Part shown: positions 2,504 to 61,770 of the stretch, piece by piece
Numbering within the stretch: the stretch's first letter is position 1
Layout: every line of letters begins with the position of its first letter
DNA from: an uncultured Bacteroidales bacterium
GTDB taxonomy: Bacteria > Bacteroidota > Bacteroidia > Bacteroidales > Paludibacteraceae
Assembly: GCA_902799705.1 (NCBI GenBank)
Contig: CADCBP010000006.1
Location: forward strand, 20,480 to 84,479
Reading direction: 5' to 3'
DNA: 64,000 nucleotides
Program-made: the position numbers and the translations under genes
The notes under the pieces: model-generated
Seen by the model: the letters and a program-made list of their open reading frames with translations, nothing else
What the model was told of the DNA's origin: nothing
The model's database searches: none

Positions 2504-3778
2504 TTATGGCTTTAGACAACCGATGGGAATGATATATACGCCATCGTCTCTGCGATAGGCGTATTGTCCGCCGGTTAAAACCATCAAGAATGCCGGTTGA
2601 CCAATCTTGGATGTATCTACTTGCTTGGCTAACTCCGTCAGGTTTTGTGCGGCATCTTCAATCTCTTTGCTACCGGTTTTAACTTCCACCGCAGCCCATC
2701 GACCATCGTGCAAACGGATGATCAAGTCAGACTCCAAATCAGAGTTATCGTGATAGTGATAGACGGTTCCGCGTAGTGCATCAGTATAGACACGCACGTC
2801 ACGCAAACAAAAGTCCTCGAACAAGAATCCGAACAGATTAAAGTCCTCTAACACGCTTGTCGGATTCAGTTCTAATACCGCTGTTGCCAGGCTTGTATCT
2901 ACGAAATGGCGTTTGTGGGATGTACGGATGCCAGTCTTGCTGCGTAACGACGGTTGCCATGCTTTAGCATCTTCGATGACAAACAGTCGACGCAACGCTC
3001 TCAAATAACTGGTAAGCGTCTTGTCGGTGATAGAGATATCGTTCGCGCGCACATCAGCCATGATCGTAGTAGCGGCTGTCATAGTGGAGATGTTTCGCGC
3101 ATAACTGCGTAACACCGCACGCACTCGGTCTGGATCTTTTTCGGAACCATCCACACGATTGACATCCGTGTTCACTAGTTCATCCACTAAGTTAACCGCC
3201 ACCTCCAAAGCGTCCTCTTTGTCCAATGATAAAGCACCCGGCCAGCCGCCTCGACACATGACATAAGCGATGTCCTTAATCGTAAGCGGACTTTCGAAGA
3301 GTCCCATCTGCTGTGTACCATCGAAGAGTGCTTTGAGCGACACTTGTCCGCGCGACTCCTTCGACTCCCAGAGACTCATTGGTCGCATACGCAGGCGTGC
3401 GATTCGTCCTGTACCGGTATGTTCCATCTCTTCATTCTCTTCTTCATCCAGAGGTGTTGCTGAACCGGTTAATATGAACTGATTCATCTGTTGCCGTTGA
3501 TCTGCTGCAAATCGTACAGCATCCCACAGGACCGGAATCGTCTGCCATTCGTCGAGCATGCGTGGTGTTTCGCCTTCCAATAACAGCGAAGGTTGCGTAT
3601 CTGCCATTTTGCGATACATGGCACGTTGGTCCGGATTTTGGATATATATGACACTCTTAGCTAACTGAGCACCTGTCGAGGTTTTTCCACACCATTTGGG
3701 GCCTTCAATTAGCACTGCTGCACTACTGCGTAATTTGCGTTTGAGCAACTCGTCATCAATTCGTTCAAGGTATTCCAT
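2504..3778 (-). CDS. AAA_14 / DUF4143 ATPase
   Basis: A 424-residue protein of the large prokaryotic AAA_14-DUF4143 family. The Walker A motif is GPKWCGKT (26-33), Walker B is RMLDEW (73-78), and sensor-1-like FILTGSAT is at 101-108. The C-terminal DUF4143 region contains a PD-(D/E)xK-like strand pattern (SDLIIRL..WAAVEVKTG), as is usual in the family, whose biological role is poorly defined; toxin-antitoxin or defence-like roles have been suggested. It stands alone, with its own promoter and terminator. The promoter overlaps an array of four 23-bp repeats, pointing to tight, possibly self-directed regulation. Confidence 0.9.
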   Translation of the reverse strand: MEYLERIDDELLKRKLRSSAAVLIEGPKWCGKTSTGAQLAKSVIYIQNPDQRAMYRKMADTQPSLLLEGETPRMLDEWQTIPVLWDAVRFAADQRQQMNQFILTGSATPLDEEENEEMEHTGTGRIARLRMRPMSLWESKESRGQVSLKALFDGTQQMGLFESPLTIKDIAYVMCRGGWPGALSLDKEDALEVAVNLVDELVNTDVNRVDGSEKDPDRVRAVLRSYARNISTMTAATTIMADVRANDISITDKTLTSYLRALRRLFVIEDAKAWQPSLRSKTGIRTSHKRHFVDTSLATAVLELNPTSVLEDFNLFGFLFEDFCLRDVRVYTDALRGTVYHYHDNSDLESDLIIRLHDGRWAAVEVKTGSKEIEDAAQNLTELAKQVDTSKIGQPAFLMVLTGGQYAYRRDDGVYIIPIGCLKP

Positions 3779-3981: not shown

Positions 3982-4192
3982 AAAAAAAATACTGCTTATG
4001 CTTTATAAGAGAATGGGTGTCTGGCATAACCCAGGAATAATAAAGCAAAAGCAGTACATACCGAAGTACGTACCGACGCTTGCCAATCTTATTCCTTAGG
4101 ATAAAAAGTTGCCAGACTTTATATTCTCTTTGATTGGTTCGTCAGTAATAATATGTTATGTTCGCGTGCGCGAAACATTAGCCGCTGCTAAT
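3982..4192 (-). ncRNA. Candidate structured RNA of about 210 nt
   Basis: The unit has its own promoter (4199-4230), no credible reading frame, and a strong intrinsic terminator. Read leftward the stems are: ATTAGC/GCTAAT with loop AGCG (4192-4177); TGTT(T)CGCG/CGCGAACA; GACG..CCAATC paired with GATTGG..CGTC enclosing a smaller hairpin; and an 8-bp stem GTACGTAC/GTATGTAC capped by a UUCG tetraloop. It ends with the 16-bp, one-mismatch stem 4055-4040/4006-3991, followed by eight Ts (3989-3982). I do not recognise it as 6S, tmRNA, SRP or RNase P RNA. The next gene leftward starts about 200 bp beyond the terminator and has its own promoter. Confidence 0.6.
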
Positions 4193-4198
4193 CGCTTG

Positions 4199-4230
4199 CA
4201 AAGATACAACAAAAATTTGAATTACACAAA
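4199..4230 (-). promoter_or_regulatory. Promoter of the candidate ncRNA
   Basis: TTTG (4230-4227), 20 nt, TATCTTTG (4206-4199), with TGTAATTCA directly after the -33. There is no protein-coding gene downstream for about 400 bp; the only thing it can serve nearby is the structured RNA. Confidence 0.75.
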
Positions 4231-4990: not shown

Positions 4991-5560
4991 TTATATTAGC
5001 GTGACGGATTGGAGGCCGCCGTTATTGCCTGCGACATAAGAGACGGTGGTATGGCCTGTGAGGACAAGCTGGTCAATGAAAAGCGGCTGACCAGTCAGGA
5101 AGAAAGTGGATACAAAAGTATCCCCTGCACTCAATTTGGAATTGACAGATTCCACAACCTCAAAACGCATATCGCCCAAATAGCGGAACACACAACGGCG
5201 GTTGGGCAACCAAGTAACCTCAATACTCTGGCCGGGTTGTAAGTCCTTGGTATGAATTCCCTCTGCGATGAACGGATTGCTGCTGCCATGTTCGCCTTCT
5301 TTCAAACGATTGGTATAATCATTCCAATCGCGCGAACCCACGTAGCGGGCAAGGATATTGAGCGTGGAAAGACGTGTGTTATTAGCACCTTCTACGTACC
5401 CCCACAGACGCTCTAATGTACTAAGCGCCAAGTTCTCATGCAGACACAGCCATATTTGCGCAATAAGAGACTCAAAATCAGCCGGAGTGGCCGGACGTGT
5501 ACCAAACCGCGCTTCTACATCCTTGCGGAGCTGGATAACTTCGGGTGCATTTTTGTTCAT
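4991..5560 (-). CDS. Conserved unknown protein beside a Ser/Thr kinase
   Basis: A 189-residue protein with the start taken at MNKNAPEV (three codons inside the longest frame). The N-terminal half is helical, with a helix-turn-helix-like run (LALSTLERLWGYVEGANNTR); the C-terminal half is beta-rich and resembles a small barrel (GQSIEVTWLPNRRCVFRYLG). There are no membrane segments. I do not recognise an enzyme. It lies downstream of the membrane Ser/Thr kinase in the same direction but has a separate promoter at 5586-5617. A regulatory role linked to the kinase is only an inference from position. Confidence 0.65.
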   Translation of the reverse strand: MNKNAPEVIQLRKDVEARFGTRPATPADFESLIAQIWLCLHENLALSTLERLWGYVEGANNTRLSTLNILARYVGSRDWNDYTNRLKEGEHGSSNPFIAEGIHTKDLQPGQSIEVTWLPNRRCVFRYLGDMRFEVVESVNSKLSAGDTFVSTFFLTGQPLFIDQLVLTGHTTVSYVAGNNGGLQSVTLI

Positions 5561-5585
5561 AATGATCAATTGTTAAAATCCGCTG

Positions 5586-5684: not shown

Positions 5685-6902
5685 CTATTTCTCAGGCAAA
5701 ACGAGCGCCAAGGAGTCATATAGTTGGTCGTTCATGTTCCAGTATTCCATGAATGCATGCATAAATTCTTCATGTAAAATTGGGTCTTTGATGGAGCGTT
5801 TTGCTTCTTCAAGACACTCTTTCATACCGCCATCATAATCGCGAACATCAGACATTGTTTTCAATTCGCCGTTTTTTACTGCTTTGCGAATGGCAGTATG
5901 ACGTGCAAAATGAATGTCTGCTGCTTTTTTGCGTACCACTTCGCGAGGAGAAGGAGTATTCGCTTTAACAGCCAGCGCATCCACCACACGATTTAGAGAA
6001 TCCACCTTGGCTTGGCGTTCTTCATTCACTTTGAGAAGGGAGTCAATGTTGGCAGAAAGACTCTGCTCCTGTTCGCTATGCTTGAGCTCGGCTTGCCGGT
6101 ATTCGGCATACATAAGCCATCCTGCAAGGCATAATACGGCTAAAAAGATAAGTGACACCGGCAACCATATACGCAAGTTGTCTGATCGTTTTATAGCCCG
6201 CAACACTTGTGCGCATGAAGAATAACGATCTGCAGGGTTCACACGTGTGCATTTGCGGGCAATATATTTATAACGATGCGGGAAAAGAAGAGCGATGATT
6301 TTGCCGATCGCATAGATATCTGCACGGTTGTCTATAGATTGGCCAGCTAATTGTTCCGGCGCGATATATGCCATCGAACCGGCAGGCTGTTTGAAGGTGA
6401 CGTAATCATCCGTATCGGACACTCCAAAATCAATCAGTTTGACCGTAGAGCCATTCCGCGTGATGAGAATATTAGATGGTTTGATATCCCGATGGATGAT
6501 TTGCCGCTCATGCAAGCAAGAAAGGGCGTCAAGGAGTTGCTCAAGGATGCGGCGACGGATAGCTGCAGGCGGGTTCGTCTCAAGGAACTGATCCAACGTA
6601 ATGCCATCGATATACTCCATTTGGATATACCAGCCGATGGAATCCATGTGCCCGAAATCAAGCAGTCGAACGATATTCAGATGATCCACACCGACTCCGA
6701 TAGCAAACTCTTTGCAAAGGAGTTCTATATGCGGCGTGGATTCGCGATAAGGTTCTGCCAAAGCCTTCAGCACGTACTTCCGCCCAAAACGTGTAGCCAC
6801 ATAGAGCGCATTATATCCCTCTGCAGACAATAGCTCCGGTTCCGACCATACATCAGAGAAATCCGCGTTTATAGGCGATATGATAAAAGAGGAATCATTC
6901 AT
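5685..6902 (-). CDS. Membrane-anchored Hanks-type Ser/Thr protein kinase
   Basis: The start is set at MNDSSF (6902), 13 codons inside the longest frame, which clears the upstream gene; that gives 405 residues. The kinase domain spans about 25-240: VLK with K46, the catalytic loop HRDIKPSN (138-145), DFG (158-160), and APE (181-183). The glycine-rich loop is weak. One membrane segment follows (about 245-265), then a coiled-coil-like Glu/Lys-rich stretch and a helical extracytoplasmic domain with no known ligand module. It follows the pectate-lyase-like gene by 23 bp and is probably co-transcribed with it. Confidence 0.9.
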   Translation of the reverse strand: MNDSSFIISPINADFSDVWSEPELLSAEGYNALYVATRFGRKYVLKALAEPYRESTPHIELLCKEFAIGVGVDHLNIVRLLDFGHMDSIGWYIQMEYIDGITLDQFLETNPPAAIRRRILEQLLDALSCLHERQIIHRDIKPSNILITRNGSTVKLIDFGVSDTDDYVTFKQPAGSMAYIAPEQLAGQSIDNRADIYAIGKIIALLFPHRYKYIARKCTRVNPADRYSSCAQVLRAIKRSDNLRIWLPVSLIFLAVLCLAGWLMYAEYRQAELKHSEQEQSLSANIDSLLKVNEERQAKVDSLNRVVDALAVKANTPSPREVVRKKAADIHFARHTAIRKAVKNGELKTMSDVRDYDGGMKECLEEAKRSIKDPILHEEFMHAFMEYWNMNDQLYDSLALVLPEK

Positions 6903-6925
6903 TGCCAGACTTATATTTACTCTAT

Positions 6926-7897
6926 TTACCGAACAATGCATTGGGCATCGGGGGCAGAGCGGTAAGGGATCTTAATACCGGGACCGAAAGAGGGTGAGAT
7001 GATGGTGACCGTTGATTCGCGGCGGGCATCGACTGCCGGGTGTTCCGTGGTACATTCCCACCGGCAATGATCCAGGAGAATAGTACCGAAACGAACCATT
7101 GGCATTCGCTGGCGACAACCCTCTCCCCATGTGCAATACGAATAGGTAACATGCAGTTTTCCTCTATCCGCCACTACCCTGTCCGCAGCACCCACCAGAT
7201 TAGAGTTCATGTGGTCGTAACTGCGTTCCGAATAGCCGAAATAGCAATGTGAGACCGTAATCGAATCTGACTGCGAAGTGATGTCCAGATTGCCGTCCAT
7301 GCCATCCATGAAGACACAACTATCAATGAATATACGGATGGAATGATCCATGCCCAAGAGATCATTGCCTCCCACATCAATTGCCCCGGGGCCTTGCAGA
7401 TGCAAGCCGCGAACAATTATATCCCTGCAATGAGATAACTGGATACATCCGGAAGCGCGGAAAGACTCTTCGGGGTCGTTAAAACGGTCAATAAACAGCT
7501 GGCGGGTCTTTAGTTCGCGCTGCTCACGCACCTTTTGCCCATTAGAGAGCACACCACCCTCTCCGCCGGTAGAGAAACTCATCACATCCGCGCTATCGAG
7601 CATCGCCCGGATATCTTTTGTCAAACAAAAACGGGTACGCAGACAAGCGTCATGCGTACCTATGATGGTTTTGTTTTGCAGATGCTTGAGAACGACGGTA
7701 TGGCCAAGAACAAACTCGCCTGCCGAACCATCCAGAATAACCGTATCGTGCGTTCGGACAGCCGCCAAGAGACTATCCGACATGTCTGCTCCGTTGGAAG
7801 TGATGGTCAGGGCAGCTTGAGCACTCTGAGCCATCACAAGCAAACAGAAAAGAATACTATTTGCTATTATATGCTTCAAGGGCTTTACGCAAGACAA
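6926..7897 (-). CDS. Pectate-lyase-like secreted protein
   Basis: A 323-residue protein with a signal peptide (hydrophobic core about 10-24, AQA-A cleavage region). The body has right-handed beta-helix character, with the DGNLDITSQSDSITVSHCYF pattern at the centre, as in family 1 pectate lyases, and MPMVRFG where the conserved catalytic Arg region lies. Pectate lyases cleave polygalacturonate by beta-elimination outside the cytoplasm; substrate specificity is not provable here. Its start overlaps the 3' end of the aminotransferase gene by 41 bp. A second family member lies two genes upstream. Confidence 0.75.
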   Translation of the reverse strand: MSCVKPLKHIIANSILFCLLVMAQSAQAALTITSNGADMSDSLLAAVRTHDTVILDGSAGEFVLGHTVVLKHLQNKTIIGTHDACLRTRFCLTKDIRAMLDSADVMSFSTGGEGGVLSNGQKVREQRELKTRQLFIDRFNDPEESFRASGCIQLSHCRDIIVRGLHLQGPGAIDVGGNDLLGMDHSIRIFIDSCVFMDGMDGNLDITSQSDSITVSHCYFGYSERSYDHMNSNLVGAADRVVADRGKLHVTYSYCTWGEGCRQRMPMVRFGTILLDHCRWECTTEHPAVDARRESTVTIISPSFGPGIKIPYRSAPDAQCIVR

Positions 7898-61119: not shown

Positions 61120-61151
61120 TTTGCATATTTCAATTAAAAGCAGTAATTTTG
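61120..61151 (+). promoter_or_regulatory. Promoter of the 133-residue gene and its structured leader
   Basis: TTTG (61120-61123), 20 nt, TAATTTTG (61144-61151), with CATATTTCA after the -33. The transcript would have a leader of about 210 nt. Confidence 0.8.
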
Positions 61152-61157
61152 CACCCG

Positions 61158-61368
61158 ATTTCGTCAGCTCTTAGACGCTAAATAGGAGGACATATTTAAT
61201 TCAAGGCATATTCCTTTACCGGTAGTTTGGCACACTAATTAGTAACAAAGAGTAATATGTCCCAATTATCCGTGTTTTGCATGGGTAGGTGGGATATTGT
61301 TACGTGTGTGCCAACACTACCGGTTTTCCCACTTGCTCGTGCTTTTTTACGCCAAAAATATTAAAGCC
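61158..61368 (+). ncRNA. Structured leader with competing pairings
   Basis: A long hairpin pairs 61218-61235 with 61306-61324 (ACCGGTAGT..TTGGCACAC, one 1-nt bulge), then GTAACA with TGTTAC, then ATATGTCCCA with TGGGATAT. Upstream, GGACATATT (61188-61196) can pair with AATATGTCC (61254-61262), which lies in the hairpin's apical stem, so the two folds exclude each other or form a pseudoknot. It occupies the whole leader of the following gene. Confidence 0.6.
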
Positions 61369-61770
61369 ATGAGTATAAACATAACTAATTTAGGTGGAGT
61401 CGTCAATTACCATGACAACCACAAAGAAATTACCATTCACAACGCAGGAAATACGTCTGACCTCGTCCGTAAATTCATGGCGGACGATGTAGAACCGGTG
61501 GAGGATATTAAGCCGGATTCTTCTTTCTTCAAATTCTTCACACCCAAGTGTTTCGAACAGAAACGCGCAGAAGCTGTAGAGGCAGAGATACGCGCTGCAT
61601 GCAAAGGTACAGCGGAAGCGTTGTGGAGAACCCTTTGGGATAACGAGAATTTAGGCTATGTAGAGGTGGAACATATTGACGCAACTACCCTCTATCGCGA
61701 GATAGAAAACCACTACGGTAAATTGCCTTATTCTGAGCGAAATTTTCGCAAAGCGAGGAACAATAGATAA
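61369..61770 (+). CDS. Small unknown protein downstream of the restriction-modification-like gene
   Basis: The start is MSINITNL (61369); 133 residues. An N-terminal beta-rich part contains VVNYHDNHKEITIHN, resembling the tail of the preceding large protein (INYGTINFNDNSK), then a helical part (CFEQKRAEAVEAEIRAACKGTAEALWRTLW) and a Tyr-containing C-terminus. No known domain is recognised. Its own promoter and elaborate leader suggest independent, controlled expression. Confidence 0.65.
   Translation: MSINITNLGGVVNYHDNHKEITIHNAGNTSDLVRKFMADDVEPVEDIKPDSSFFKFFTPKCFEQKRAEAVEAEIRAACKGTAEALWRTLWDNENLGYVEVEHIDATTLYREIENHYGKLPYSERNFRKARNNR

Follow-up and report, generated by a model that had tools for sequence, protein, structure and literature searches.

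To our knowledge, post-transcriptional control in Bacteroidota is poorly known. Rfam assigns the DUF805 (RF03081) and DUF805b (RF02914) RNAs, which form clan CL00115, to its cis-regulatory class; these are motifs of 68 and 35 nt, without the 170-nt pseudoknotted part of the leader family described here. A study of Flavobacterium psychrophilum reports 64 structured 5′ regions (PMC9723704), and the GibS sRNA of Bacteroides thetaiotaomicron is reported to have a mainly single-stranded 5′ part (PMC7366714). The openly licensed literature, including the accessible portions of PMC2864571, PMC7366714, PMC8040213 and PMC9723704, yielded no description of the leader RNA, and an earlier partial detection of it is possible.

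We have analyzed a 64,000-nt stretch of DNA from an uncultured Bacteroidales bacterium (the window), in which an earlier note had pointed to a structured RNA at positions 3982-4192 of the minus strand. The elements named there, a promoter, a UUCG hairpin, the arms GACG..CCAATC/GATTGG..CGTC, a terminator stem and a T8 run, are all present in the minus-strand sequence. The promoter (4199-4230, −) contains TTTG (4230-4227) located 20 nt upstream of TATCTTTG (4206-4199). Bacteroidota promoters carry TTTG at −33 and TAnnTTTG at −7, and the two motifs appear to fit this type. Judging by the promoter position, the whole RNA (3982-4192, −) would start near 4192 and end with the U8 run at 3982.

The RNA begins with two 5′ hairpins (4161-4192), predicted by folding and by comparison of genus relatives. 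In the first of them (4192-4177), the CAGCGG loop is mostly kept across genus members and the stem varies, as seen by eye. The following parts are, in 5′ to 3′ order on the minus strand, the P1 5′ arm (4132-4146, with ACTGACG at 4146-4140 and CCAATC at 4137-4132; 88.1% and 71.5% of cells paired), arm b of the long-range helix b/b′ (4123-4130), the small-hairpin loop d (4111-4117, 93.4% of cells paired), which is the kissing-loop partner of d′, arm c of the long-range helix c/c′ (4089-4095), the P1 3′ arm (4072-4088, with GATTGG at 4088-4083 and CGTCGGT at 4078-4072) and hairpin e (4052-4075), whose 8-bp stem GTACGTAC/GTATGTAC closes the UUCG loop. Next come the 5′ arm of terminator T (4041-4055, 95.3% of cells paired), arm c′ (4034-4040), hairpin g (GGGT/ACCC, 4015-4032, 87.7% of cells paired), whose loop carries d′ (4025-4019) between g and g′, arm b′ (4007-4014), and the terminator 3′ arm with the U-run (3982-4005; arm 4005-3991, U8 3989-3982). 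The P1 arms and the b, c, d, b′ and c′ elements were assigned from the alignment and the cognate-arm tests described below, and the end of the terminator from sequence, alignment and folding. The terminator stem has 16 pairs with one mismatch (−24.8 kcal/mol) and is followed by T8. The same order of parts is kept in the genus members of type A (close) and type B (strongly diverged).

No Rfam family reached its gathering score at 3982-4192, and below that score there were only matches far under the cut-offs. The proposed covariance-model check thus returned no known family at the locus and agreed with the earlier statement that the layout of the RNA is not that of 6S, tmRNA, SRP or RNase P RNA: tmRNA, SRP RNA and RNase P RNA gave no gathering-score match, the window giving two tRNAs only, and 6S RNA (RF00013) had no match in the whole genome, with 5 of 14 control genomes matching. 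When 20 loci of the wider family were searched against Rfam, the sole match was a DUF805 RNA, located immediately behind one locus. Bacteroidales-1 (RF01693) had no match at the locus and no gathering match in the window; elsewhere in this genome (G000, C14:43555-43778) it matched with 38.8 bits, under the 60-bit cut-off, and 35 of 61 relatives had matches at E ≤ 0.001, with 10 of the 61 over the cut-off.

The segment 3982-4195 folded at −67.6 kcal/mol, compared with −42.9 ± 4.0 kcal/mol for 200 dinucleotide shuffles (z −6.14, none of the 200 as low), in line with a structured RNA. The terminator hairpin by itself was equally distinct (z −6.18, 0/200 shuffles as low), and the P1 hairpin by itself was weak (z −1.91, 10/200 shuffles as low). 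The stems listed in the earlier note are therefore present, and P1 and T covary, but they do not make up the minimum-energy fold. This is a long rod, which keeps b, c and d and gives up P1 and T and which, as a nested fold, excludes these two. Compensatory change backs both the rod helices and the set formed by P1 and T. Since P1, T, b, c and d use no base twice, they can coexist as a kissing-loop pseudoknot. Comparison of the relatives shows that the predicted loops of P1 and T pair with each other through three helices, one of them a kissing loop.

Compensatory change was assessed in two separate sets of sequences. Six of the 66 genus loci were dropped as truncated or odd (L053, L055, L057:2239, L076, L079 and L081), leaving 60 sequences, 58 of them distinct; 41 were used in alignment A5, with P1, e, T and g as nested and b, d and c as crossing helices. 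The second set, A9, comprised 42 of 50 matches, none from the window's genus; it excluded L083, both L084 copies, L108, L111, L114, L115 and the match on the reverse strand of L101. Five measures of covariation were taken in A5, two of them less decisive. Standard pairs were found in 84.5% of 2357 cells vs. 32-42% with the partners slid by 1-3 columns, and two-sided change in 254 cells vs. 106.5 ± 8.4 in shuffled data. The less decisive measures gave 31 pairs with two-sided change vs. 27.1 (17/500 shuffles as high) and 92 further pair types vs. 87.9 (50/500 as high). The lowest-paired helices were c (65.4%), inner P1 (71.5%) and b (72.0%), values that come partly from misplaced gaps. Helix b had changes on both sides in all eight of its pairs and is very different between types, with its complementarity retained.

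A cognate-arm test compared the duplex energy of cognate and permuted arms over the distinct arm pairs of 55 sequences, with kinship uncorrected. In each of P1, b, d, c and T, binding was better between cognate than between permuted arms, with 0 of 5000 permutations as good; for example, helix b had −8.5 vs. −2.5 kcal/mol and helix c −7.8 vs. −2.6 kcal/mol. P1, b, d and c again gave 0/5000 in A9. The two sets hence agree on compensatory change, in permutations that ignore relatedness, and both support P1 and the terminator, two of the stems for which the earlier note had suggested looking for such changes in relatives. The mosaics L051, L080 and L082 were kept out of the permutation test and are shown beside it, and one sequence (L056:2090) was an exception in which b is without pairing (−0.2 kcal/mol). 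The kissing helix has at least six pairs in 41 of the 42 A9 members, which come from other families. In A9 members the loop of the small hairpin is mostly CTGGNAA, complementary to the loop of hairpin g, and co-varying versions exist, such as CTCGCAA/TGCGAG. In the helices, cells with G-U outnumbered those with A-C (179:65 and 130:45), the bias that folding of the transcribed strand should produce.

The 3′ strand of hairpin e is complementary to two partners, the e 5′ strand and the base of the terminator 3′ arm. Both duplexes reach −5 kcal/mol or lower in 38 of 40 (A9) and 29 of 29 (A5) distinct triples, and both pairings of the e 3′ strand beat permuted partners (0/5000). The cognate and permuted energies for e and T were −14.4 vs. 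−12.4 and −13.4 vs. −11.1 kcal/mol in A9, and −10.9 vs. −8.9 and −7.7 vs. −6.2 kcal/mol in A5. These margins amount to only ~1.5-2.4 kcal/mol because the strands are conserved; permuted e and T partners also bind well, so that covariation there is modest. In the window, the extended form of e (CGGTACGTAC/GTATGTACTG), our proposed antiterminator, pairs 4075-4066 with 4061-4052, so that it competes for bases with P1 (CGTCGGT) and with the beginning of the terminator. The RNA thus combines an intrinsic terminator with a mutually exclusive alternative pairing. This predicted anatomy is that of an attenuator, from which we infer that switching occurs.

We have searched for further members at several depths. 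A BLAST search detected the RNA in four genomes out of 61, one of them its own. Under strict filters, a covariance model built from eight sequences (R1) gave 64 matches in 52 of 178 genus genomes (26 of the 68 good-quality ones), at most three in any one genome; another search matched 157 of the 178, mostly through short promoter-like matches only. The window RNA type is patchy even within the genus (52/178 genomes). A second model (R2) scored the 3982-4192 locus at 164 bits and, with the own genome counted, had matches in 41 of the order's 393 genomes, spread over 33 of 206 genera. A third model (R3), built from the 42 sequences of A9 after four badly supported pairs had been taken out, and hence from no member of the window's genus, matched 150 of the 393 order genomes, which represent 89 of 206 genera. 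At the level of the phylum it matched 54 of 395 genomes, in 27 of 171 genera, and four of these 54 fall within the order. The genome counts are lower bounds, since the 40-genome searches score few candidates per genome, and the covariance-model E-values are rough. Matches in genus, order and phylum place the conservation of the RNA well outside near-identical strains.

Close R3 searches of eight genomes at E ≤ 0.01 gave 5 (own genome), 10, 19, 14, 30, 5, 12 and 5 matches. The 30 matches of G450 include 25 at E ≤ 0.001, and reverse-strand echoes account for two of the five matches in G384. The five matches in the own genome lie outside the window locus, three of them at E ≤ 0.001; the 3982-4192 locus is not listed in this whole-genome search at E ≤ 0.01, and R3 recovers 3983-4156 at 35.3 bits (E 2.8e-4) when the 64-kb window is searched. 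Beyond the two copies in the window, R3 found no match there up to E 1. As a control, 50 kb of Escherichia coli, small and of different composition, gave one R3 match up to E 10 (E 6.1) and no R2 match. Strong matches also match their own reverse strand with up to 45-46 bits, so low scores alone prove little. The best explanation of these data is that the RNA is one member of a multicopy Bacteroidota family of RNAs of ~170-210 nt. The notion of one abundant regulatory or housekeeping RNA of this lineage was not supported, given the second copy in the window, the five more in the genome and the order- and phylum-wide family; a lineage-specific housekeeping RNA was likewise rejected, the RNA being patchy in the genus and multicopy.

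The second window copy (61144-61348, +) has the promoter motif TAATTTTG at 61144-61151 and the RNA at 61152-61348, where the U-run ends; a likely ATG follows at 61369, 20 nt after the U-run. It folded with z −5.85 (0/200 shuffles as low) and was scored in the 64-kb window by R3 at E 0.11 and by R2 at E 0.0087. In its relatives the helices are retained with changed letters, as judged by eye, and the start codon lies ~10-20 nt after the U-run. The surroundings of the copy look mobile and include a 957-aa protein that has no Pfam match, as well as an HNH_3 protein.

The position of the RNAs relative to genes was analyzed in 96 of the 122 loci L130-L251, which are not a random sample of loci. They contained 92 distinct R3 RNAs (seven from the genus, the others from order and phylum), 91 of them with at least 300 nt downstream. 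The nearest downstream ORF with 70 codons or more shared the strand of the RNA in 86 of the 91 cases, lay on the opposite strand in 3 and was absent in 2. The distance from RNA to ORF had a median of 69 nt for the 86 same-strand cases, with 76 within 160 nt. The promoter motif TAnnTTTG was found within 160 nt upstream of 69 of the 92 RNAs (8.8 expected), whereas of the 69 spacers that separate an RNA from its start codon by 15-160 nt just one contained it (3.85 expected from shuffles). With so few promoter motifs in the short spacers, the simplest view is that transcription of the gene starts at the promoter ahead of the RNA. Members of the wider family usually lie 5′ of a same-strand gene with hardly any promoter motif between. 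Plasmid records of Bacteroides ovatus, B. fragilis and B. finegoldii contain R3 matches (E 1.2e-8, 1.0e-5 and 1.8e-9) that end 57, 31 and 44 nt before a gene; the genes are annotated as dihydrofolate reductase family (two) and deaminase (one), and topoisomerase, integrase or RteC-domain genes lie near these copies. Searches of phage and plasmid sequences with the L253 copy, and a second pattern search of viral contigs, found none.

Taken from sequence comparison, these observations make it probable that the RNA family consists of 5′ leaders acting as conditional transcription terminators for diverse accessory genes. The earlier proposal of a regulatory or housekeeping RNA of this lineage gives way to a cis-acting leader with a conditional terminator, to which the data point instead. 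As long as P1 and the loop-loop pairs hold, hairpin e would stay short, T would form and transcription would stop at the U-run. If P1 gave way on a signal, e would extend and capture the beginning of the T 5′ arm, so that RNA polymerase would read through into the gene. Counting against this leader model are the weakness of P1 by itself, the rod as minimum-energy fold, the functionally incoherent downstream genes, and the window copy, which is 205 nt from the next gene with a promoter motif between.

The arrangement of the window copy bears on the leading alternative, a stand-alone trans-acting or protein-binding sRNA that would always end at the terminator and act elsewhere, the gene behind it being incidental. 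Of the explanations considered, this one is closest to the earlier reading. The motif occurs in 17 of 24 genus type A spacers of at least 180 nt, the window copy included, and in 2 of 17 type B spacers below 170 nt; the window copy and 16 other type A members, with the next gene ~200-370 nt away and a promoter motif between, would suit an sRNA, as would the strong terminator and the RNA's own promoter. This explanation does not account for the same-strand position of the next ORF behind 86 of 91 RNAs, in 76 cases at no more than 160 nt, nor for the single motif in 69 spacers. It is further disfavoured by the ~10-20-nt spacers of the second copy and its relatives and by the spacers of 21-28 nt in the type A members L032 and L045. 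We regard it as rather unlikely.

At the locus itself, the gene directly behind the terminator encodes an AAA_14/DUF4143 ATPase (2504-3778, −) and has its own promoter motif, TACCTTTG, at 3810-3803. An arrangement without an intervening promoter is thus not found at 3982-4192, and the RNA may now act only as a short terminated RNA or, alternatively, may be left over from an earlier arrangement. The ATPase unit is absent in the relative L036, compared by eye, and was either gained in the window or lost in L036. There, the counterpart of the gene at 1866-2309 (−) comes, with its leader and start, directly after the RNA, ~150 nt on, and this gene is possibly the original partner of the RNA. Because the ATPase unit lies between the two, the present downstream gene may not be the original one. 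In L005 the same ATPase is followed by the 3′ part of another RNA copy, 22 nt before an ATG whose frame stops after ~20 codons.

On the other side of the RNA, the window encodes C0 (190 aa) beside a Ser/Thr kinase (4991-5569 and 5685-6941, −). The C0 model has a helical N-terminus and a beta-rich C-terminus, with no Pfam match, and a Foldseek search of solved structures with this model had no hit at E ≤ 0.001. At 41 of the 66 genus RNA loci, including the most diverged (L077 and L078), the kinase, C0 or both are found no more than 2.3 kb away, a count that is lowered by loci cut at contig or fetch ends and in which near-duplicate genomes are counted. A fixed RNA-kinase-C0 module was rejected, as no neighbor in 29 loci of other genera matched either protein (flanks up to 1.5 kb). 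The stretch from kinase to RNA sits in the window between a pectate-lyase-like gene and the RNA, and in L053 and L055 the 5′ part of the RNA is replaced by the end of a pectate-lyase-like gene.

The kinase/C0/RNA neighborhoods of the genus have different genes behind the RNA in different species. In addition, the mosaics L051, L080 and L082 have halves from different types, with b unmatched in all three, c also unmatched in L080 and L082, and d weaker. The varying genes and the mosaics suggest that RNA copies can serve as homology regions for gene exchange, on present evidence as a side effect and not as a shown function. One could go further and see a DNA-level element, a site of cassette-like exchange of gene units through folded single-stranded DNA or homologous recombination. 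Besides the changing genes and the mismatched b arms of the mosaics, such an element could explain the presence or absence of the ATPase unit exactly behind the terminator, the remnant in L005 and the close pairs of copies, which are 1.1 kb apart in G254 and 1.9 kb apart in G291. The excess of G-U over A-C substitutions, the promoter and the U-run point to a transcript, and G256 and G450 have their copies scattered, with ~8 kb between the closest two listed. We judge the DNA-level element to be improbable. An integron-like array was rejected on this same scatter, the close pairs in other genomes notwithstanding. Two family members stand in tandem, <50 nt apart, ahead of one gene at L084 and L085.

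The downstream genes share no function. The Pfam scan covered 75 of the 76 proteins at short distance and gave matches to 119 families, none of them in more than seven proteins; the commonest were BspA-type leucine-rich repeats (7), the Por secretion tail (5) and divergent InlB repeats (3), and DNA methylases (2 and 2) and sigma factors (2) were also present. A crude signal-peptide pattern occurred in 43 of the 76 downstream proteins vs. 6 of 36 upstream neighbors and 18 of 49 other ORFs, backgrounds that are small and include uncertain ORFs. Such incoherent targets are unusual for a riboswitch. A classical riboswitch for one small molecule would match the kissing-loop pseudoknot, the strongly conserved loop bases and the adjoining terminator with its alternative partner; faced with this functional mixture of targets, we give it very little credence. 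A 6S-like housekeeping RNA, a rod with bulges, agrees with the minimum-energy fold and is hardly tenable for an RNA that is patchy in the genus, present in many copies per genome and positioned before genes, in a genome where RF00013 has no match.

Between terminator and start codon, five loci (L134, L190, L221, L222 and L230; L097 is the same place as L134) have an above-gathering DUF805 or DUF805b match, which makes these motifs look like the 3′ neighbor of the same leader in part of the family. In the wider family, DUF805b-like sequence was found no more than 400 nt behind 14 of the 91 members; in the genus, it was found no more than 600 nt behind 17 of the 66 loci. At L190:2674-2742 there is a second DUF805 match, ~1 kb away, without an adjoining R3 match, and the window has neither a gathering-score DUF805 or DUF805b match nor the exact pattern. 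In some members of the family, the leader may thus include the DUF805 motifs as a second part. Inspection by eye also shows another small hairpin, its loop resembling UUGGGACU, that is repeatedly present between terminator and start codon, for example in L131, L132, L157, L165 and L178.

Returning to the leader reading, we put forward a broader idea as tentative, with the odds on balance against it: a phylum-wide leader, present in up to dozens of copies per genome, may put rapidly changing accessory genes, among them those for surface and secreted proteins, DNA methylases and regulators and those on mobile elements, under one shared transcription switch and mark the positions where such genes are swapped and the switch stays, which would make it one of the largest unrecognized RNA-controlled gene sets in bacteria. 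If this were true, one common signal would govern a considerable share of the variable genome, among it the genes found on plasmid records of Bacteroides, the DUF805 motifs would gain a larger context, and a directly testable system would be available in a tractable gut organism.

Compared with known systems, the RNA at 3982-4192 resembles GibS, as described, in being intergenic and in having its own promoter and an intrinsic terminator (PMC7366714). The family shares with Bacteroidales-1 (RF01693) its structured nature, the order in which it occurs and a similar model length (179 positions). With transcription attenuators and terminator riboswitches it has in common the leader position, the intrinsic terminator and a strand shared with an alternative hairpin; unlike in those systems, the target genes are incoherent and two loops pair across the terminator.
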